Assembly (NCBI GenBank): GCA_007280275.1
Contig: QYQB01000123.1
Span: forward strand, 1 to 47,170
Origin: a bacterium
Lineage (GTDB): Bacteria; Bacteroidota; Ignavibacteria; UBA10030
Reading direction: 5' to 3'
Length of the DNA: 47,170 bases
This document shows, in pieces, positions 11,747-35,588 of the stretch. Numbering within the stretch: the first letter of the stretch is position 1; each line of letters begins with the position of its first letter. A program made the position numbers and the translations under genes. The notes under the pieces are model-generated. The model had not been told where the DNA came from, did no database searches, and saw only the letters and a program-made list of their open reading frames with translations.

Positions 11747-14395
11747 ATGCGCATTCGTTGGACCCAGGTAGTACTGTGTATGCTTGGCTGTTTCGCTTAT
11801 CTGCAATCTCAGACTCCAACACCGCCAACCAAGATCTCGGCTGAACGGGTTCGGGAGGCGATGACGATTGATGGAAACCTTTCGGAGCAAGTCTGGCAAG
11901 GCCCGGGCTTAACAAATTTCACGCAGAGGCTGCCCAATGAGGGATATCCTCCCTCACAGAAGACTGAAGTGTGGCTTGCGTACGACGATGAAGCGCTCTA
12001 CGTCGCGGCGAGGATGCACGACACTGCCCCCGACTCGATCATTCAGGTACTCGGACGCCGCGATGCTGACATGACGGCGGACTGGTTGAAATTCTACATC
12101 GACCCATATCATGACAGAAGGAGCGGATTCTACTTTAACCTGAGCGCTGCGGGCACGATGCAGGACGGGACGCTCTATAACGATGATTGGGATGACGATT
12201 CCTGGGATGGAGTTTGGGAAGGGAGAGCCCGGATCGGCAAGGATGGATGGACGGCGGAAATGCGCATTCCTTTCTCGCAACTCCGGTTCCATCCCGCCGA
12301 GAAGTATGTGTGGGGAGCGAATTTTAGCCGCAGCATCGGACGGGCAATCGAGAAAGACTACTTAGTCTACACGCCCCAAAAAGAGAGCGGATTTGTGTCG
12401 CGATTCATCGATGTCATTGGAATCGAGAAGATTGCACCACCAATGAACATTGAAGTGCTTCCCTATGCGACATCACGCGCAGAGTATTCTCAACGTCCTC
12501 CTGGAGATCCATTCAATGATGGCTCCAAATACTCTCCCGGAATAGGTGCCGATTTCAAGATCGCTCTCGGTTCGGGTCTCACGGTCAACGGAACCATCAA
12601 TCCTGATTTCGGCCAGGTTGAAGTCGATCCAGCGGTGGTGAACCTGAGCGACGTCGAGACATTCTATCAGGAGAAACGACCATTCTTCGTCGAGGGAGCC
12701 AACGTATTCCAATTCGGGCAGGGAGGTTCGAACAACTTCTGGGGATTCAACTGGGGAAATCCCAATTTCATCTATAGCCGGCGAATCGGCCGAGCTCCCC
12801 AAGGAGGAATCCCATCCCATGATTTCGTTGAAATGCCCCTCGGCACGCACATTCTCGGTGCTGGGAAGATCACCGGGAAGGTGGGCGATGACTGGAATGT
12901 GGGCATGATCCACGCGGCCACTTCCAGGGAATACGCGAATATCCAGACCTCTGGCAGGCAGGAAGAATTTGAAATCGAACCATTGACATACTACGGGGTC
13001 GGTAGGGTGCAGAGAGATTTCGATGACGGGAGACAAGGAATCGGGTTCTTGACGACGTTCACGAACCGGTTTTTTTCTGACAGAAGGCTTCAGGACGCGG
13101 TCAACAGCCGAGCGCTGGTTGGCGGGATTGACGGATGGCAGTTCCTTGATTCAGCGAAGACCTATGTGGTGACAGGCTGGGGGGCTTTCACTTCTGTGAG
13201 CGGTAGTCAGTCGAGGATCACTTCCTTGCAGCGGGGTTCACGCCACTACTTTCAGCGTCCGGGGCTCTCTCAGTTTCAGGTGGATAGTGGGGCGACGAGT
13301 CTTTCCGGGTACGCTGCTCGATTCACATTGAACAAACAAAAAGGTGCGATGCAGCTCAACGCTGCTGTCGGATTGATTAGCCCGGGATTTGATGTTGACG
13401 ACCTTGGATTCTCCTGGCGAACGGACGTTGTGAATTACCATATAGTGTCCGGGTACAAATGGACAGATCGGACCGAGTTCTACAATAATGTTCGGTTCGA
13501 TGTGGCGGCCTTTGGAAGCAACGACTTTGGAGGGAATAAGATCTGGCAAGGGTATTTCTTCAGGTGCAACATCGAGTTCCCGAATTTCTATGAGTTCTCA
13601 TTGATCCACGCCTACAATCCCTATACAATTGACACGCGCTCCACACGAGGCGGCCCGCCAATGCTGAATCCAATAGGGAGGGAATGGGACATCAACGTCG
13701 GGACAGATAGCCGTAAATCGGTTGTCATGAATATGTCCGCGTTCACGTATCTCGGAGGCGGTGGTGAGCAATTCCAAGGGGGATTGGAGATTGAATTCAA
13801 GCCCCTCCCGAATATCCTCCTGTCACTGGGGCCTGACTTCAGCAGAAATCTGAATCAGGCTCAATGGGTCGGGTCGTATAGCGATCCCACCGCCGTCCAA
13901 GCAGACGGCACGCGTTACGTGTTTGCTGATTTCGATCAGAAGACCATATCCGCAAACATCCGCCTCAACTGGACATTCTCGCCACAATTGAGCCTGCAAT
14001 TCTTCCTCCAACCTCTACTCTCGTCGGGGAATTATCGCGACTTCAAACATTTCGCAAAGCCAAGGACTTTCGAGTTCGGCACATATGGCAGGGGCGGTTC
14101 AACGATCACGCTCAATCAGGACGGGACAGGGTATTCGGTTGATGCGGATGGAGCCGGACCAGCTCCGGGCTACTCATTTAGCAATCCCAACTTCAGCTTC
14201 GCCTCCCTCAGGGGAAATGCGGTCCTGAGATGGGAATACCGTCCAGGATCTGCTCTCTATCTCGTCTGGACTCAGACCAGGTCGGACAATGAGGCGGTGG
14301 GCGAATTCCGGTTTGGTCGCTCGATGAACAGGTTGTGGGAAATCAAGGGTGACAACATCTTTATGCTCAAATTCACATATTGGTGGTCACCGTAA
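11747..14395 (+). CDS. DUF5916 outer-membrane protein with N-terminal CBM9-like domain
   Basis: MTIDGNLSEQVWQGPGLTNFTQRLPNEGYPPSQKTEVWLAYDDEALYVAARMHD; NPDFGQVEVDPAVVNLSDVETFYQEKRPFFVEGANVF. Confidence 0.93.
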   Translation: MRIRWTQVVLCMLGCFAYLQSQTPTPPTKISAERVREAMTIDGNLSEQVWQGPGLTNFTQRLPNEGYPPSQKTEVWLAYDDEALYVAARMHDTAPDSIIQVLGRRDADMTADWLKFYIDPYHDRRSGFYFNLSAAGTMQDGTLYNDDWDDDSWDGVWEGRARIGKDGWTAEMRIPFSQLRFHPAEKYVWGANFSRSIGRAIEKDYLVYTPQKESGFVSRFIDVIGIEKIAPPMNIEVLPYATSRAEYSQRPPGDPFNDGSKYSPGIGADFKIALGSGLTVNGTINPDFGQVEVDPAVVNLSDVETFYQEKRPFFVEGANVFQFGQGGSNNFWGFNWGNPNFIYSRRIGRAPQGGIPSHDFVEMPLGTHILGAGKITGKVGDDWNVGMIHAATSREYANIQTSGRQEEFEIEPLTYYGVGRVQRDFDDGRQGIGFLTTFTNRFFSDRRLQDAVNSRALVGGIDGWQFLDSAKTYVVTGWGAFTSVSGSQSRITSLQRGSRHYFQRPGLSQFQVDSGATSLSGYAARFTLNKQKGAMQLNAAVGLISPGFDVDDLGFSWRTDVVNYHIVSGYKWTDRTEFYNNVRFDVAAFGSNDFGGNKIWQGYFFRCNIEFPNFYEFSLIHAYNPYTIDTRSTRGGPPMLNPIGREWDINVGTDSRKSVVMNMSAFTYLGGGGEQFQGGLEIEFKPLPNILLSLGPDFSRNLNQAQWVGSYSDPTAVQADGTRYVFADFDQKTISANIRLNWTFSPQLSLQFFLQPLLSSGNYRDFKHFAKPRTFEFGTYGRGGSTITLNQDGTGYSVDADGAGPAPGYSFSNPNFSFASLRGNAVLRWEYRPGSALYLVWTQTRSDNEAVGEFRFGRSMNRLWEIKGDNIFMLKFTYWWSP

Positions 14396-28199: not shown

Positions 28200-29426
28200 A
28201 TGAGAGCGATCGTTAAACCAAAGCCGAGAGATGGGCAGGCATGGGCATCGGGGCTCCAGATTATCGACAAGCCCGAACCGAGGGTTGAGCAACCAAATGA
28301 TGTGGTTATCCAGGTTGAGGCCGGAGCAATTTGCGGCACGGACGTAGGGATCTACAATTCGAAAGAGTCGCTGCGTGTGCAAATGAGCAGGGCAAAGACG
28401 GACCCAGTCACGGTTGGGCATGAGTTCAGTGGTAGAATTGTCGATGCCGGAAGGCAGGCTCGGAATCACCTGGCCCGCCTCGTTTTTCAGAAATCCAAGA
28501 CGAATGCAAACCTCAGGAAGTTCCTGCATCGAAAAACTGCACGTTCCCTCGCCACGGAGAGCACGTTTCTGAAATTCCTTGGGAAGCAATTCTTCAGCAC
28601 AGCCGAAATGCACGTGACATGCGGAACTTGCTACCAGTGTCGGCAGAGAGAATATCACGTCTGCCGGAACACGATCATCAAGGGCGTTCACGATGACGGC
28701 GCGTGGGCTGCCTTTGTCAAGGTGCCGGCTGAGAACGTTCGCCTCTTCTTCCAACGGGAAATCCCGTATGAAATCATCAGCTTCATGGACGCTCTGGGAA
28801 ACGCCACGCACACCGTCATGGCCGCTCCCGTCAAGGATCGATCAGTGGTAGTTCTGGGATGTGGTGTCCAAGGGCTGATGGCTGTCGCCGTCGCGAAGTG
28901 GGCCGGCGCACGGCGCATTTATGTCACGGATGCGTCGCACGAGGAATTCTCGCATGAAAAGCTCGTCTCCCGCCGTTTTGCGCTCGCCAAGACGTATGGC
29001 GCCGACCACTGTTTCGATATGACTATCGCCGATGATCGTTCAGCATTTGTTGAGACGATCATGAGAGAGACGGACAAAACAGGTGTCGATGCCGCCCTGG
29101 AGATGTCAGGCAGTTATCGTGCCTACGAAGATGCGGCCCGTGTTCTCCGGATGGGGGGCACATTTTCCCTCCTGGGGATCCCGTCAGGGACGATGCAGGT
29201 GGATTTCGCGAAGAATATCATCTTCAGCGGCATTACGGTCCATGGGATCATCGGACGCCGCGTTTTCCAGACTTGGGATCAAATGGAGGAGTTGCTGAAA
29301 GCCGGACTGGCAAAGCAGCTTATGAAGACCGGTTTTGTCACTCACCAGCTCCCGCTTGAGCGCTTCGAAGAGGGCTTTGAAGCGATTCGTTCTGGCGATG
29401 CATACAAGGTTCTGTTCAAACCCTGA
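28200..29426 (+). CDS. Zinc-dependent medium-chain dehydrogenase, L-threonine 3-dehydrogenase-like
   Basis: AICGTDVGIYN, VGHEFSG, structural-zinc CGTCYQCRQREYHVC, LGCGVQGLMAVAVAKWAGARRIYVTD, ALEMSG. About 50-residue atypical segment replaces the usual GDRV region. Confidence 0.88.
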   Translation: MRAIVKPKPRDGQAWASGLQIIDKPEPRVEQPNDVVIQVEAGAICGTDVGIYNSKESLRVQMSRAKTDPVTVGHEFSGRIVDAGRQARNHLARLVFQKSKTNANLRKFLHRKTARSLATESTFLKFLGKQFFSTAEMHVTCGTCYQCRQREYHVCRNTIIKGVHDDGAWAAFVKVPAENVRLFFQREIPYEIISFMDALGNATHTVMAAPVKDRSVVVLGCGVQGLMAVAVAKWAGARRIYVTDASHEEFSHEKLVSRRFALAKTYGADHCFDMTIADDRSAFVETIMRETDKTGVDAALEMSGSYRAYEDAARVLRMGGTFSLLGIPSGTMQVDFAKNIIFSGITVHGIIGRRVFQTWDQMEELLKAGLAKQLMKTGFVTHQLPLERFEEGFEAIRSGDAYKVLFKP

Positions 29427-29467
29427 GAACCAATGGCGAGAACGCATTTTGAGACTGTAAATCGACG

Positions 29468-29848
29468 ATGATCACAGGAGTCGGAACGGACATCGTTGAA
29501 ATTGACCGTTTTAGAAACCTGGAACAGAAGGCGGAGTTCCTGGAGCAGGTTTTCACACACACCGAAATTCATAGCGCACCCAACGGGTCCTCTCAAGACA
29601 CATTCTATGCGACGCTCTTCGCCGTGAAGGAAGCTATTTTGAAGGCGCTGGGATGCGGTCTGCAGCAAGGTTCCGTGTGGCGTGACATTCAAATCTCACA
29701 CGATTGGAGTCCCCATCTGTCCGGTTTCCTGGGGCGACTCGCTGAAGAGAAATCGGTTTCAAAAATCCATGTTTCGCACGCACACGCAGGGAAAAGCGCC
29801 GTTGCCTTCGTTTTGATTGAAACCACCAATGAGGAGAAGATCCTATGA
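29468..29848 (+). CDS. acpS: Holo-[acyl-carrier-protein] synthase
   Basis: MITGVGTDIVEIDRF and LFAVKEAILKALGCG motifs. Confidence 0.92.
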   Translation: MITGVGTDIVEIDRFRNLEQKAEFLEQVFTHTEIHSAPNGSSQDTFYATLFAVKEAILKALGCGLQQGSVWRDIQISHDWSPHLSGFLGRLAEEKSVSKIHVSHAHAGKSAVAFVLIETTNEEKIL

Positions 29849-31545
29849 GCAACATCGGCTCCTATGAGACCAGACTCAGAGACTTCACTTGGAAGATGGC
29901 GGAAGAGGAGTTGGGGTACGGCAAAGACGGAAAATACAATCTCGGCTATTTCTGCAGCGATCGGATCTGTGAAATCGGGAATGGAACAAAAGTCGCGCTC
30001 GTCTGGGAAGGATTCACAGGTGAGGTCAGGAGATATACATACGATGATTTGAGAATCTACAGCAATTCGTTCGCGACGTTGCTCAGGCAGAATGGACTGC
30101 TGCCGGGTGATCGCATCTGCGTGTTTATGGATCGAATCCCCGAGCTGTACATCTCCTTCCTTGGTATTCTCAAGATGGGAGGCATCGTTCAGCCGCTTTT
30201 CTCTGCTTTTGGAGAAGACGCGCTCGCAATGCGTCTCGAAGATGCCAAGACAAAAGCCATTCTGACGACCCGCAAGCATCTTGGCAAGGTGAGGAGGATA
30301 CGATCATCACTGCCGGAGTTGTCATTGGTTATCGTCGTTGATGCGGGCGAGAAGCCGTTGGAACAAGGTGAGATTGCCTTTTCGATGGAAAAGGCCGTGA
30401 AGAACGAGCACATTCAGATCGCTACGGTCGGTCCGGAAACGCCATCCGTGCTTCACTACACTTCAGGGACCACTGGCAGGCCGAAGGGAGCGTTGCATGT
30501 CCACTCCTCTGTTATCGCCCAGGCAATAACGACGAAATGGGTGCTTGACGTTCGCCCTGATGATATCTACTGGTGTACGGCGGATCCCGGCTGGGTGACG
30601 GGCACATCATATGGGATCATCGGCGCTTGGGCTAGCGGTATCACACAGGTTGTCCTGGACGCAGGATTCAGTGCCCATAAGTGGTACGCGTTCATTGAGA
30701 AGCACAGGGTGACGGTATGGTATTCAGCACCCACCGCTATTCGCTTGCTGATGAAGGAGGGTCTTGACCCGGTCAACAAGCATGATCTCTCTTCGCTCCG
30801 ACATCTCGCCAGCGTCGGAGAGCCGTTGAACGCTGAAGCAGTCCTGTGGTCCGAGAAGGCCTACGGGAAGCCGTTCCACGACTCCTATTGGCAGACCGAA
30901 ACAGGATCGATCGTCATTTCGAATTACCCCGGTATGAAGATCAAACCCGGCTCGATGGGTAAGCCCTTTCCGGGGATTACCGCAGCCATCCTCAATCCAA
31001 AGACCTTCGAGCCGATCAACACAGTTGGCACGGTCGGGCTGATCGGGCTGAAGCCAGGATGGCCATCGATGTTTCGGATGTATTGGAACAACAAGGAGAC
31101 ATACGACAAGAAATTCCAAAACGGCTGGTACATTTGTGGAGATCGATCGAGCATAGACAGTGAAGGTTACTTCTGGTTCGTTGGCCGTGACGATGACGTG
31201 ATCAACACGGCGGGACACCTTGTCGGGCCGTTCGAGATCGAGTCGGCGCTTCTGGAACATCCCGCCGTCGCAGAATCTGCCGCGGTGGGCAAACCTGATC
31301 CGATCAATATGGAAGTTGTGAAGGCGTTTATTGCGCTCAAACCCGGGTTCGCAAAGAGCGAGGATCTGAGCATGGAAATCATGAACTACATTCGAAAAAG
31401 ACTTTCACCGCTTGCCATGCCGCAGGAAATCGAATTTGTCGATTCGCTTCCCAAGACCAGAAGCGGCAAGATCATGCGACGGCTGCTGCGGGCGAAGGAA
31501 TGGGGAGAAGAGATAGGGGATATCTCGACGCTTGAAAATGACTGA
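29845..31545 (+). CDS. AMP-forming acyl-CoA/acyl-ACP synthetase, acetyl-CoA synthetase-like
   Basis: LHYTSGTTGRPKGALHVH, YWCTADPGWVTGTSYG, HDSYWQTETG, YICGDRSSID, KTRSGKIMRRLLRA; ATGA overlap with acpS. Confidence 0.93.
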   Translation: MSNIGSYETRLRDFTWKMAEEELGYGKDGKYNLGYFCSDRICEIGNGTKVALVWEGFTGEVRRYTYDDLRIYSNSFATLLRQNGLLPGDRICVFMDRIPELYISFLGILKMGGIVQPLFSAFGEDALAMRLEDAKTKAILTTRKHLGKVRRIRSSLPELSLVIVVDAGEKPLEQGEIAFSMEKAVKNEHIQIATVGPETPSVLHYTSGTTGRPKGALHVHSSVIAQAITTKWVLDVRPDDIYWCTADPGWVTGTSYGIIGAWASGITQVVLDAGFSAHKWYAFIEKHRVTVWYSAPTAIRLLMKEGLDPVNKHDLSSLRHLASVGEPLNAEAVLWSEKAYGKPFHDSYWQTETGSIVISNYPGMKIKPGSMGKPFPGITAAILNPKTFEPINTVGTVGLIGLKPGWPSMFRMYWNNKETYDKKFQNGWYICGDRSSIDSEGYFWFVGRDDDVINTAGHLVGPFEIESALLEHPAVAESAAVGKPDPINMEVVKAFIALKPGFAKSEDLSMEIMNYIRKRLSPLAMPQEIEFVDSLPKTRSGKIMRRLLRAKEWGEEIGDISTLEND

Positions 31546-31583
31546 GGACTAACCAACACATCTCTCTTTACCAGGGAGGAAGC

Positions 31584-31838
31584 ATGACAGAAGACGCTAA
31601 GAAACTGATTATAGAGTATGTCAAGAAGGAATATCTTGACGAGGATTCCGACCAGGTAGTCACTGAAGACACCAAACTCATATCGAGCGGCATCGTGGAT
31701 TCATTCTCGATGGTCTCGTTGAAGATGTTTCTGGAGAAGAAGTTCAAAATCAAGATTCCCGATGAAAAGGCAACACCCGAAGCTTTTGATTCAGTCAACG
31801 ACATTGTCACATTGCTGAGAGAATTCACTCCTCTCTAA
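31584..31838 (+). CDS. Acyl carrier protein
   Basis: 84 aa, acidic; ISSGIVDSFSMVSLKMFLEKKFKIKIPDEK with phosphopantetheine-site DS motif. Confidence 0.92.
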   Translation: MTEDAKKLIIEYVKKEYLDEDSDQVVTEDTKLISSGIVDSFSMVSLKMFLEKKFKIKIPDEKATPEAFDSVNDIVTLLREFTPL

Positions 31839-31848
31839 AGGAGGTTTC

Positions 31849-33096
31849 ATGGCATACGCAGAAAAAGCCAGGAGTCACTACAGCAACGAACTGACTTTGA
31901 TCAAGGAGGCTGGCCTCTTCAAGGAGGAGCGATATATCAAGTCTCCGCAGATGGCAAAGATCAAGGTTGAATTTCCTGCGGGCGCGCCGAGTAAGGAAGT
32001 GCTCAATTTCTGTGCAAACAACTACCTCGGATTGTCGAGCCATCCGGAGGTGGTGGAGGCAGCTCACAAAGGGCTCGATTCGCATGGGTATGGGATGTCC
32101 TCCGTTCGATTCATCTGTGGGACGCAGGATATCCATCGTGAACTTGAAGCGAAGCTGTCCGAATTCCTTGAAACCGAAGACACGGTGCTCTTCCCGTCAT
32201 GCATGGAAGCCAATGCGGGTCTGTTTGAAGTCAGCCTCGACAAGGATGACGCAATGATCTCGGATCGCCTTGTTCACGCTTCGATCGTCGATGGGATGAG
32301 GCTCAGCAAGGCCCAGCTCTATAATTACAAGCACCTCAACATGGATCACCTCGAGGAAAAGCTCCAGGAGACCCAGAGTTGCCGACTACGGATGATTATC
32401 ACCGACGGAGTTTTTTCGATGGATGGCGACATAGCGCCGCTCGAAAAGATCTGCGATCTGGCGGATAAGTACGACGCTATGGTTACGGTGGACGATTCGC
32501 ACTCGACAGGGTTCCTCGGTAAGCACGGGAAGGGAACACATGAGCACTGCGGAGTGTTGGGACGCATCGATGCGATTACGACAACTCTGGGAAAGGCGCT
32601 CGGTGGCGCGGCCGGGGGATGCATAAGCGGCCGGAAAGAAATTGTTGAGCTTTGCCGGCAGCGAGCACGCCCATACCTCTTCTCGAATACAGTGCCCCCC
32701 GTCGTCATCGCCGCATCTATCAAGGTCATTGAGCTGATTTCAAAGTCCACAGACAGGCGCAACAAGCTCGAAGAGAATACAAAGTACTTCCGGGAAAAGA
32801 TGACGCAGGCTGGACTCGATATCAGGCCGGGGGTTCATCCAATTGTTCCTGTCATGCTTTACAACGCAAAGCTGGCTCAGAATGTCGCCCGCGATCTGTA
32901 TGAAGAGGGCATCTACGCGGTCGGATTCTTCTTCCCTGTGGTGCCTCAGGGCCAGGCACGCATTCGAATTCAGATCTCAGCCGACCACGAAAGGGAACAC
33001 CTCGACAAAGCGGTTGCTGCCTTCACGAAGGTTGGTGGCAAGTACAATATTCTGGGCAAGAAGAAGGACGAAGTGATCGCCCTGTACGGGATGTAG
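31849..33096 (+). CDS. Alpha-oxoamine synthase, diverged Kbl-like paralog (PLP)
   Basis: [53 protein letters not shown] (PLP Lys); 10 bp after the ACP gene. Confidence 0.92.
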   Translation: MAYAEKARSHYSNELTLIKEAGLFKEERYIKSPQMAKIKVEFPAGAPSKEVLNFCANNYLGLSSHPEVVEAAHKGLDSHGYGMSSVRFICGTQDIHRELEAKLSEFLETEDTVLFPSCMEANAGLFEVSLDKDDAMISDRLVHASIVDGMRLSKAQLYNYKHLNMDHLEEKLQETQSCRLRMIITDGVFSMDGDIAPLEKICDLADKYDAMVTVDDSHSTGFLGKHGKGTHEHCGVLGRIDAITTTLGKALGGAAGGCISGRKEIVELCRQRARPYLFSNTVPPVVIAASIKVIELISKSTDRRNKLEENTKYFREKMTQAGLDIRPGVHPIVPVMLYNAKLAQNVARDLYEEGIYAVGFFFPVVPQGQARIRIQISADHEREHLDKAVAAFTKVGGKYNILGKKKDEVIALYGM

Positions 33097-33174
33097 AGAT
33101 TGTGAGAGGCGTAACCACCGCGGCGATCAAAAGTTGAACCGGGACAACAAGAAAGGTAGAGGGAACGGCATCCC

Positions 33175-34386
33175 ATGGCAGTTCACGAGCGAGTACGAGA
33201 GTTCTACAACAAAGAGCTGATCGAGCTTCAATATGCTGATCTGTTCAAGGAGGAGCGGTTCATTCATTCTCCCCAAGGTGCCGACATCTCGGTTGAGTAT
33301 CCTCCGAATTCGGACCTTCGTAACGTGATCAACTTCTGTGCAAACAACTACCTGGGTCTTTCCAGCCATCCGGAAGTAATCGCGGCTGCGAAGAATGCAT
33401 TGGAAGAGCGGGGATTTGGATTGGCTTCAGTACGATTTATTTGCGGCACACAGGATTGGCACAAAGAGCTTGAGCGAAAGATCTCAGATTTCCTGGGGAT
33501 GGAGGACGCGATCCTCTACTCGTCCTGCTTCGATGCAAACGGAGGCGTCTTTGAAGCCCTTTTGACGGAGGAGGATGCTCTGATTTCAGACGAGCTCAAC
33601 CATGCATCAATCATCGACGGGATCCGGCTGTGCAAGGCCGAGCGCCATCGGTACAAACATGCTGATATGAGGGATCTCGAGCATCACCTGAAGGAAACCC
33701 AGAACAAGCGCTTCCGGATGATTGTGACCGACGGGGTGTTCTCAATGGATGGAGATGTTGCAAAGCTGGACGAGATCTGCAACCTAGCCGAGGAACATGA
33801 TGCGATACTCATGGTGGACGATTCGCACGCAACGGGCTTTGTGGGGAAAACTGGACGCGGCACACACGAACATCACGATGTGATGGGAAGAGTTGATATC
33901 ATCACAACGACGTTCGGTAAAGCTCTCGGTGGCGCGGCAGGAGGGTGCATCGTTGGTAACAAAGTGTTCATCAATATCCTTCGACAGCGGTCGCGTCCGT
34001 ACCTCTTCTCCAACACGCTGAGTCCTGTGGTGGTCGGAGCGACAATCAAGGCGATCGATTTGCTGAAGGACTCCACGGCGTTGCGCGACAAGCTGGAGCA
34101 GAATGCAGTGTATTTCCGCAAGAAAATCCGTGAAGCGGGCTTCGAGATCAAGGATGGATTCCATCCTATCGTCCCGATCATGCTCCATGATGCCGGGCTC
34201 GTGCAGGCGATGGCTCGTGAGCTGTATGCAGAGGGGATCTACGTCGTAGGATTCTTCTACCCGGTTGTACCAAGAGGAACAGCGAGGATCCGGGTGCAGA
34301 TCTCCGCCGCGCATGAGAAACACCATATTGACACAGCAATTGATGCTTTTGTGAAAGTGGGGAAGAAGCTCGGTGTCTTGAAGTAA
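33175..34386 (+). CDS. kbl: Glycine C-acetyltransferase (2-amino-3-ketobutyrate CoA ligase)
   Basis: Near-canonical Kbl: [88 protein letters not shown]. Confidence 0.95.
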
Positions 34387-34397
34387 TTTCGCAATGA

Positions 34398-34415
34398 AGC
34401 GGCCTGGCGGCCGCT
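34398..34415. terminator. GC-rich stem-loop between kbl and the membrane acyltransferase (no strong T-tract)
   Basis: AGCGGCC-TGGC-GGCCGCT. Confidence 0.45.
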
Positions 34416-34451
34416 GAAACGTTGATCGGATAACACGGAGATGGATCGAAA

Positions 34452-35588
34452 TTGAAGAACCGTCTTGTCTTTGTGGACTTTCTCAGAGGCTGGGCCACGA
34501 TCGTCATGGTCGAGGTCCATGTCTTCAACGCATTCCTGTTGCCGGATATCAAGAATGCTGCGTGGTTCGGGTGGGTCAACTTTGTCAATGGCCTTGTCGC
34601 GCCGAGCTTCCTCTTCGTCGCCGGATTTGTGTTCGTTGTTGCGAGCGACCGAAAGCTCGAAGAATTCCGAACGTTCGGCAAGGCGTTCTGGCGGCAGCTG
34701 AGCCGGATCTTTCTCATCTGGGTTATCGGGTACGGACTTCATCTTCCCTACTTCTCGCTCACCCGGACTCTGCGTGACTCAACTGCTTCGCAGCTTCTCC
34801 TCTTCAGTCAGTCCGACATTCTCCATTGCATCGCTATCGGCCTTCTCATCGTATTTCTTGGACGTATTGTCATCAAGCGCGATCAGTACTACCAACTCTT
34901 TCTTGTGCTGATTGGCAGTCTCATGGTCTTGATTGCTCCGTTCATCTGGGAAATCGACTTTTCCCGCTTTCTGCCAGGATTCGTGGCGCCGTATTTCAAT
35001 TATCACCACGGCTCTATCTTCCCATTATTCCCCTGGCTTGGGTTCCTGATGTTCGGGGCTGTTGCTGCTTTTGTGCACAAGGAAGCCAGGGTGAACGGGA
35101 CTGAAACCCAATATTTCCAGCGATTGGCTCTTCTGGGGGGCGTACTTCTGGTGGGTGGCACATTTCTGGTCGATCTGCCGTCTAAAATTCCGTTCATGTC
35201 CACGGCCATACGAGCGAATCCTGTCTTCTTTGCATCCAGGCTTGGAATTGTGTTCCTTCTTCTCGTGGCATGTTGGTATTACGCCGAGTGGCGTAAGACG
35301 GAGAGATCGGTTGTGCTCGACGTAAGCAAGGAGTCGTTGTTGGTCTACACCGCGCATCTTCTGGTCATCTATGGCCGGTTTTGGAATGGCAACAGTCCTG
35401 CGCATTCTTATGGAGACTTGTTTTCGATCTCTCAGTCTGTGGTTGCCACAGTGGGGTTGATTCTCCTGATGCTTGTTCTTGCAAAGGGTTGGTCAACGCT
35501 GAAGCAGAAGTCGATGCGGTGGGCTCGATACGTGTCATACGCGACAGGGATTATCCTCTTCATTGTGTTCATCGTACGAGTGTATTGA
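34452..35588 (+). CDS. Heparan-alpha-glucosaminide N-acetyltransferase-like / DUF1624 membrane protein (TTG start)
   Basis: LVFVDFLRGWATIVMVEVHVFNAFL, NGLVAPSFLFVAGFVFV; multiple TM segments. Confidence 0.78.
   Translation: MKNRLVFVDFLRGWATIVMVEVHVFNAFLLPDIKNAAWFGWVNFVNGLVAPSFLFVAGFVFVVASDRKLEEFRTFGKAFWRQLSRIFLIWVIGYGLHLPYFSLTRTLRDSTASQLLLFSQSDILHCIAIGLLIVFLGRIVIKRDQYYQLFLVLIGSLMVLIAPFIWEIDFSRFLPGFVAPYFNYHHGSIFPLFPWLGFLMFGAVAAFVHKEARVNGTETQYFQRLALLGGVLLVGGTFLVDLPSKIPFMSTAIRANPVFFASRLGIVFLLLVACWYYAEWRKTERSVVLDVSKESLLVYTAHLLVIYGRFWNGNSPAHSYGDLFSISQSVVATVGLILLMLVLAKGWSTLKQKSMRWARYVSYATGIILFIVFIVRVY

Follow-up and report, generated by a model that had tools for sequence, protein, structure and literature searches.

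A conserved AcpS–ligase–ACP–Kbl module that may carry the acetyl group of threonine/glycine metabolism on a dedicated acyl carrier protein

Introduction

Carrier proteins are familiar from the making of lipids and of natural products, and the acetyl group of threonine/glycine metabolism is normally carried on coenzyme A (CoA). In a stretch of 47,170 nucleotides from a bacterium of the Ignavibacteria (contig QYQB01000123.1 of assembly GCA_007280275.1, positions 1 to 47,170; herein called the window), six genes at 28200–34386 place an AcpS-type phosphopantetheinyl transferase, an Acs-like ligase and a free-standing acyl carrier protein (ACP) between a Tdh-like dehydrogenase and two Kbl-type synthases, here named Kbl1 and Kbl2. 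Which acyl carrier is used at such a locus, and for which reaction? A first reading of the window alone (the original prediction) had offered two options, either that acetyl is handled as acetyl-ACP in a threonine/glycine pathway or that a diverged synthase joins an acyl-ACP to an amino acid to make an aminoketone or sphingoid-like product.

The analyses presented here point to the first of these options. We propose, at a probability of roughly 0.58 and on the basis of sequence comparisons, that the module AcpS–ligase–ACP–Kbl1 is self-contained and uses its dedicated ACP, in place of CoA, as the acetyl carrier of threonine/glycine metabolism. AcpS would phosphopantetheinylate the ACP, whereupon the AcsA-like ligase would join acetate to it in an ATP-driven, AMP-forming reaction. 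Kbl1, a pyridoxal phosphate enzyme presumably derived from CoA-type Kbl, would then transfer acetyl from the ACP to glycine to form 2-amino-3-ketobutyrate, or cleave this compound in the reverse reaction; Tdh would interconvert it with threonine.

Results

Conservation of the module

Using tblastn and clustering of the open reading frames (ORFs) at the fetched loci, we found the gene order AcpS–ligase–ACP–Kbl1 at 21 loci, the window counted. Nine of these belonged to Ignavibacteria (the window and eight others), two to WOR-3, nine to Fermentibacteria/Aegiribacteria and one to a metagenome-assembled genome (MAG) of Krumholzibacteriia, with the genomes being MAGs, some of them incomplete, and taxon names following the record titles. 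Shorter forms, being either ligase–ACP–Kbl1 or ACP–Kbl1, were found in Ignavibacteria, Stahlbacteria and Aminicenantes. With its core order kept across several phyla, AcpS–ligase–ACP–Kbl1 is therefore a real module, conserved beyond chance. The recurrence of the neighbourhood among relatives, which the original prediction had named as its first check, was thereby confirmed, and the conserved core comprises four genes, whereas Kbl2, originally taken as part of the same gene set, appears to be an ordinary CoA-type enzyme (see below).

The association also held at the level of genome content. Among 61 relatives of the Ignavibacteria order, the cassette-type ligase was present in exactly the 9 genomes having an ACP-type Kbl. 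The genes need not be adjacent, with a cassette-type ligase being encoded elsewhere than the ACP–Kbl pair in two Ignavibacteria genomes (G069 and G129) and, in four genomes of the Stahlbacteria type, apart from that pair and adjoining Tdh.

The ACP-linked Kbl clade

Kbl1 (31849–33096, + strand) and Kbl2 (33175–34386, + strand) scored 608 and 633 bits, respectively, against the glycine C-acetyltransferase family TIGR01822 (cut-off 493). In a maximum-likelihood tree, made by quick search and having SH-aLRT (a Shimodaira–Hasegawa-like approximate likelihood ratio test) as its only support measure, the ACP-adjacent Kbls formed a single clade (35 rows, SH-aLRT 99) nested inside ordinary Kbl, with Kbl1 as a member and with the Kbl of E. 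coli, that of Bacteroidota and the Kbl2 of the window falling outside.

The clade is distinguished, in Kbl1 numbering, by F115, M119, R140, V or I at 142, loss of the basic residue at 157, H167, A273 and R303. We determined the residue usage in 126 collected Kbl sequences, 82 without an ACP and 44 ACP-linked. Position 157, located 14 residues past the His of the active site (HAS motif), was Arg or Lys in all 82 of the former and in none of the 44 ACP-linked enzymes. Position 142, adjoining the active-site His, was an invariant Asn in the 82 other Kbls and Asn in only one of the 44. Of the two remaining CoA-type residues, F119 was kept in 2/44 and S273 in 0/44, such that the Kbl1 clade lacks the CoA-type set R/K157, N142, F119 and S273. 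R140 and H167 were in turn fixed in the ACP-linked enzymes and R303 was found in 43 of the 44, with the net charge of Kbl1 giving no clear difference between the clades.

Loss of an otherwise universal basic residue at position 157, which may be the counterpart of Lys156 in ALAS, is consistent with a lost contact to a phosphate of CoA. The newly fixed basic residues would fit with a landing site for the ACP, by analogy to the ACP-using synthase SulA, where the ACP is proposed to dock in a basic groove (PMC9304779).

Kbl2 has the CoA-type residues at positions 157, 142 and 119 and is by these features predicted to be an ordinary CoA-type Kbl, probably not using the ACP. Tandems of an ACP-type Kbl1 and a CoA-type Kbl recurred in distinct lineages (loci L058, L060, L077, L084 and L189, the last at G386:C2), with the second Kbl placed variously within the Kbl tree (L189 was not among the sequences placed). 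Such a tandem might allow exchange of acetyl between CoA and ACP via glycine.

The ligase, the ACP and AcpS

The Trp of the acetate pocket in Acs is a size gate for small acids, and this residue (in the motif WQTETG) was retained in the cassette ligases examined. The ligase of the window (29845–31545, + strand), an AcsA-like AMP-forming short-chain acyl ligase proposed to be an acetate:ACP ligase, passed the acetate–CoA ligase model PRK04319 at 768 bits (cut-off 729). It resembles AcsA (PRK04319 type, PDB 9g79) in fold, length and pocket Trp, with AcsA types of the same phylum being 46–47% identical, but differs by having the hinge motif GRDDDVINT[AG]GHLVGP, common to the cassette ligases (AcsA types having TSG and then Arg or Met at this place), and by being found only alongside ACP-type Kbl among the 61 relatives compared. 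At the position of Acs Arg526, which holds the thioester-forming state (PMC10455477), the cassette ligases have Leu and Bacillus subtilis AcsA has Arg.

The ACP of 84 residues (31584–31838, + strand) has its phosphopantetheine Ser40 at 31701–31703, in the site GIVDSFS. Its family match was weak, the best NCBIfam hit being an OlsHI-type ACP at 48 bits, and the cassette ACPs made up a 29-member family with a conserved GIVDSFSM core. AcpS (29468–29848, + strand; PF01648, and TIGR00516 above cut-off) is one of two in this genome and presumably dedicated to the cassette. The copies elsewhere in the genome, for which the original prediction had suggested a count, include two other ACPs, distinct from that of the cassette, together with the second AcpS and a canonical acetyl-CoA synthetase, each on a separate contig; the cassette ACP is accordingly not the only ACP of the genome.

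Exchange with CoA-type Kbl at Tdh–Kbl sites

Four congeners of the window genome had the order RsmB–DUF1028–MDR–Kbl2–HGSNAT at the corresponding site, without the cassette, where MDR denotes the Tdh-like zinc enzyme of the medium-chain dehydrogenase/reductase type. In the window genome and in genome G004, the cassette lay between MDR and Kbl2. Nucleotide identity to G005, the nearest of the four cassette-free congeners, was about 91% up to position 29422, fell to about 0.64–0.81 over Kbl2 and was about 0.9 again from about 34475; moreover, Kbl2 was closer to that of G004 than to that of G005, whereas the flanks were closer to G005. This break in identity and the mismatch in affinity between Kbl2 and the flanks show that the block AcpS–ligase–ACP–Kbl1–Kbl2 (29427–34450, + strand) was recombined in and replaced the resident Kbl. 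In the window, the module together with the replacement Kbl2 thus sits in a pre-existing Tdh–Kbl operon, such that the intermediate could be handled with either carrier.

A comparable exchange was seen in WOR-3, where either the module (two loci) or a CoA-type Kbl (two loci) followed Tdh and preceded the same downstream genes. That the module swaps with a CoA-type Kbl at one and the same place suggests a related function.

The MDR of the window (28200–29426, + strand, 408 residues), being the resident gene of the site, was by family search nearest Tdh; it reached 267 bits against TIGR00692 (cut-off 458), with an insertion splitting the match, whereas the MDR partner in WOR-3 passed at 494 bits. 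The insertion, of about 45 residues in the catalytic domain (28452–28601), separates the GHE motif from the CGTC lobe of the structural zinc, and is a clade feature and not a frameshift, because the Ignavibacteria homologues share the same length (408–409 residues). The MDR was an operon partner of Kbl, without any ACP, in the four congeners and at six loci of other Ignavibacteria. The usual Kbl partner of MDR in Ignavibacteria is of a deep-branching type, about 48–51% identical to the Kbls of the window and seen at six loci (L031, L033, L035, L037, L038 and L047, the last at 12472–13659).

Across the module genomes, most had a Tdh of either the MDR type or the short-chain dehydrogenase/reductase (SDR) type. 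In WOR-3 and in most Ignavibacteria, the module went together with the MDR type, which scored below cut-off in Ignavibacteria and Stahlbacteria. No MDR Tdh was found at 1e-30 in at least 11 Fermentibacteria/Aegiribacteria genomes, of which nine contained an SDR-type relative of the Kbl companion in Aminicenantes, either complete or as contig-end fragments, and two (G120 and G124) had none. Judging from its neighbourhood and from features of the family, this protein may be a short-chain-type threonine dehydrogenase; NCBIfam gave it no above-cut-off assignment.

Acetate transporters and direction of the pathway

The acs-yjcH-actP operon of E. coli is known for acetate scavenging. At seven Fermentibacteria loci an acetate-transporter gene followed Kbl1, this being a SatP-type acetate uptake transporter at four of the loci and, at the other three, a YjcH-like gene with one for an ActP-like symporter after it. 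Some of the ligase-led Fermentibacteria clusters hence end in the same manner as the E. coli operon, but with ACP and Kbl1 between the ligase and the transporter. Together with the small-acid Trp pocket and the finding of the cassette at Tdh–Kbl sites in both the window genus and WOR-3, these transporters make the acetyl-ACP option the better supported of the two that were initially given.

Coupled Kbl and Tdh can run toward threonine, and 2-amino-3-ketobutyrate decarboxylates within minutes, according to PMC3439479, which cites Marcus and Dekker 1993. We lean modestly toward the synthetic direction, in which acetate and glycine would give 2-amino-3-ketobutyrate and then threonine, given the uptake type of the neighbouring transporters and the AMP-forming chemistry of the ligase. 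The direction does not follow from genome content, since the presence of thrC does not track the module. Filling of a threonine auxotrophy by the module was considered and set aside, with most module genomes of Ignavibacteria and Fermentibacteria having thrC and others lacking it; two genomes without the module also lacked it. The genome of the window has four threonine-synthase-like genes on four contigs, three of them above the thrC cut-off. A search of 14 sources at the gathering threshold found no riboswitch, of the glycine class or any other.

Discussion

Weighing of the acetyl-ACP proposal and its alternatives

Several observations weigh against carriage of acetyl on the ACP for the threonine/glycine pathway. 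Kbl1 still scores above the cut-off of a family of CoA enzymes, and Met occupies the Arg526 position in three AcsA-type ligases of the same phylum that have no ACP (L185, L186 and L187), which weakened the case for taking the hinge Arg-to-Leu change as a clear sign that the ACP is used. Two Aminicenantes genomes had an ACP–Kbl pair but no cassette-type ligase that we could find. As to the link with threonine, Tdh does not adjoin the module in Fermentibacteria; no good Tdh was found in the module genomes G120, G124 and G126, which may be incomplete; and the operon Tdh of locus L042 (2574–3014) is a decayed remnant next to intact cassette genes, with Kbl2 absent. The independence of thrC from the module, noted above, belongs to the same side.

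Should the pathway run in the catabolic direction only, threonine would be converted to glycine and acetyl-ACP, and the ligase would work in reverse to yield acetate and ATP from AMP and inorganic pyrophosphate, as an energy-yielding fermentation. Tdh and Kbl are usually catabolic, the lineages carrying the module are mostly anaerobic and the ligase reaction is in principle reversible, but abundant pyrophosphate would be required and the adjacent transporters belong to acetate-uptake families. We regard this directional variant, the probability of which overlaps with that of the proposal itself, as somewhat unlikely.

It is also rather unlikely that the product is a different aminoketone, with Kbl1 joining acetyl-, propionyl- or another short acyl-ACP to a different amino acid in place of glycine, or with 2-amino-3-ketobutyrate decarboxylating to aminoacetone en route to a pyrazine-type or other small product. 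Tdh/Kbl-derived aminoacetone can indeed yield pyrazines (PMC9814548), pairs of carrier-linked ligase and synthase are typical of dedicated products, the clade-specific changes at 119 (F to M) and 142 (N to V/I), close to the cofactor, could be taken in the same sense, and so could the distance of Tdh from the module in Fermentibacteria. No tailoring, export or regulator genes recurred with the module, however, which exchanges with CoA-type Kbl beside Tdh, and Kbl1 has kept the Kbl signature with a score far above those for other synthase families.

A plain acetyl-CoA synthetase next to an ordinary Kbl, with the ACP linked by chance or serving some other use, would agree with both enzymes passing the cut-offs of their CoA-dependent families, but is improbable: besides these, the genome has Kbl2 and a canonical acetyl-CoA synthetase; ligase, ACP and ACP-type Kbl co-occur across phyla; and the conserved CoA-type residues are lost in Kbl1 alone. 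A sphingoid lipid pathway as in Caulobacter, using long-chain acyl-ACP, would have the same gene logic of ligase, ACP and alpha-oxoamine synthase (PMC9386255), but is most improbable with a ligase that is acetate-type by its Trp pocket and not FadD/AasR-like, a Kbl1 at 608 bits as Kbl versus 319 as serine palmitoyltransferase (SPT), and no ceramide or other lipid genes recurring near the cassette, so that the sphingoid-like product of the second original option found no support.

Relation to known systems

The closest parallel to the proposed acetyl-ACP route is the AcpR/AasR/SPT system of Rhodobacteria, in which the ligase acylates its own ACP only and the synthase prefers acyl-ACP (PMC9386255). 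Both have a dedicated ACP beside the housekeeping ACPs, encoded together with a ligase and an alpha-oxoamine synthase. The present module, however, has an AcsA-type and not an AasR/FadD-like ligase, has Kbl in place of SPT, includes AcpS, and is partnered by Tdh and acetate transporters instead of lipid genes. By analogy it would work like AcpR/AasR/SPT without being a member of that system, because the type of ligase, the synthase family and the presumed acyl length all differ. SulA, the cysteate acyl-ACP transferase, is likewise an alpha-oxoamine synthase with ACP as its physiological carrier and a basic landing groove (PMC9304779), but uses a long-chain acyl group and cysteate in a sulfonolipid pathway and has no dedicated ACP–ligase module of the present kind. 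With the CoA-type Tdh–Kbl operons of E. coli and Cupriavidus necator, the module shares the Kbl family, the Tdh partner and, in the window genus and WOR-3, the site itself, but it adds ligase, ACP and AcpS, and its Kbl1 forms a separate clade with changed residues.

In a literature search, with most subscription journals lying outside its range, we found no description of an acetyl-ACP- or ACP-dependent Kbl; the gene set had not been recognized initially as a described system. The module could represent a new carrier arrangement, in which acetyl-ACP, an ACP-dependent Kbl and Tdh lead from acetate and glycine to threonine (or back again, with recovery of ATP), separate from the acetyl-CoA pool. 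This notion, taken jointly with that of a module spreading horizontally among distant and mostly uncultured phyla, is a tentative one that we hold at somewhat less than even odds. If it is true, a central reaction of amino-acid metabolism would exist in a form that uses a carrier protein with a two-carbon acyl group, acetyl pools would be separable by their carrier, and uncultured, mostly anaerobic lineages would have a new route linking threonine, glycine and acetate; annotations of the module genes as 'acetyl-CoA synthetase' and 'glycine C-acetyltransferase' would then need correction. CoA-type and ACP-type Kbl side by side would furthermore constitute a natural test of acyl-carrier switching in an enzyme.

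Gene calls at the locus

The window lies on one of the 338 contigs (C313) of a genome of 3.7 Mb that is about 84% complete and has its closest named relatives among Ignavibacteria. The region 28200–34386 consisted of six intact ORFs, all on the + strand, and the family matches bore out the six co-directional genes as initially assigned. The ATGA overlap of AcpS and ligase, the gap of 10 bp between ACP and Kbl1 (which contains AGGAGG) and the DSF site of the ACP were likewise all present as described. The count of candidate promoters and terminators was not above that in shuffled sequences. Next after Kbl2, an HGSNAT-like membrane protein (34452–35588) was encoded in all six of the six genus members examined.

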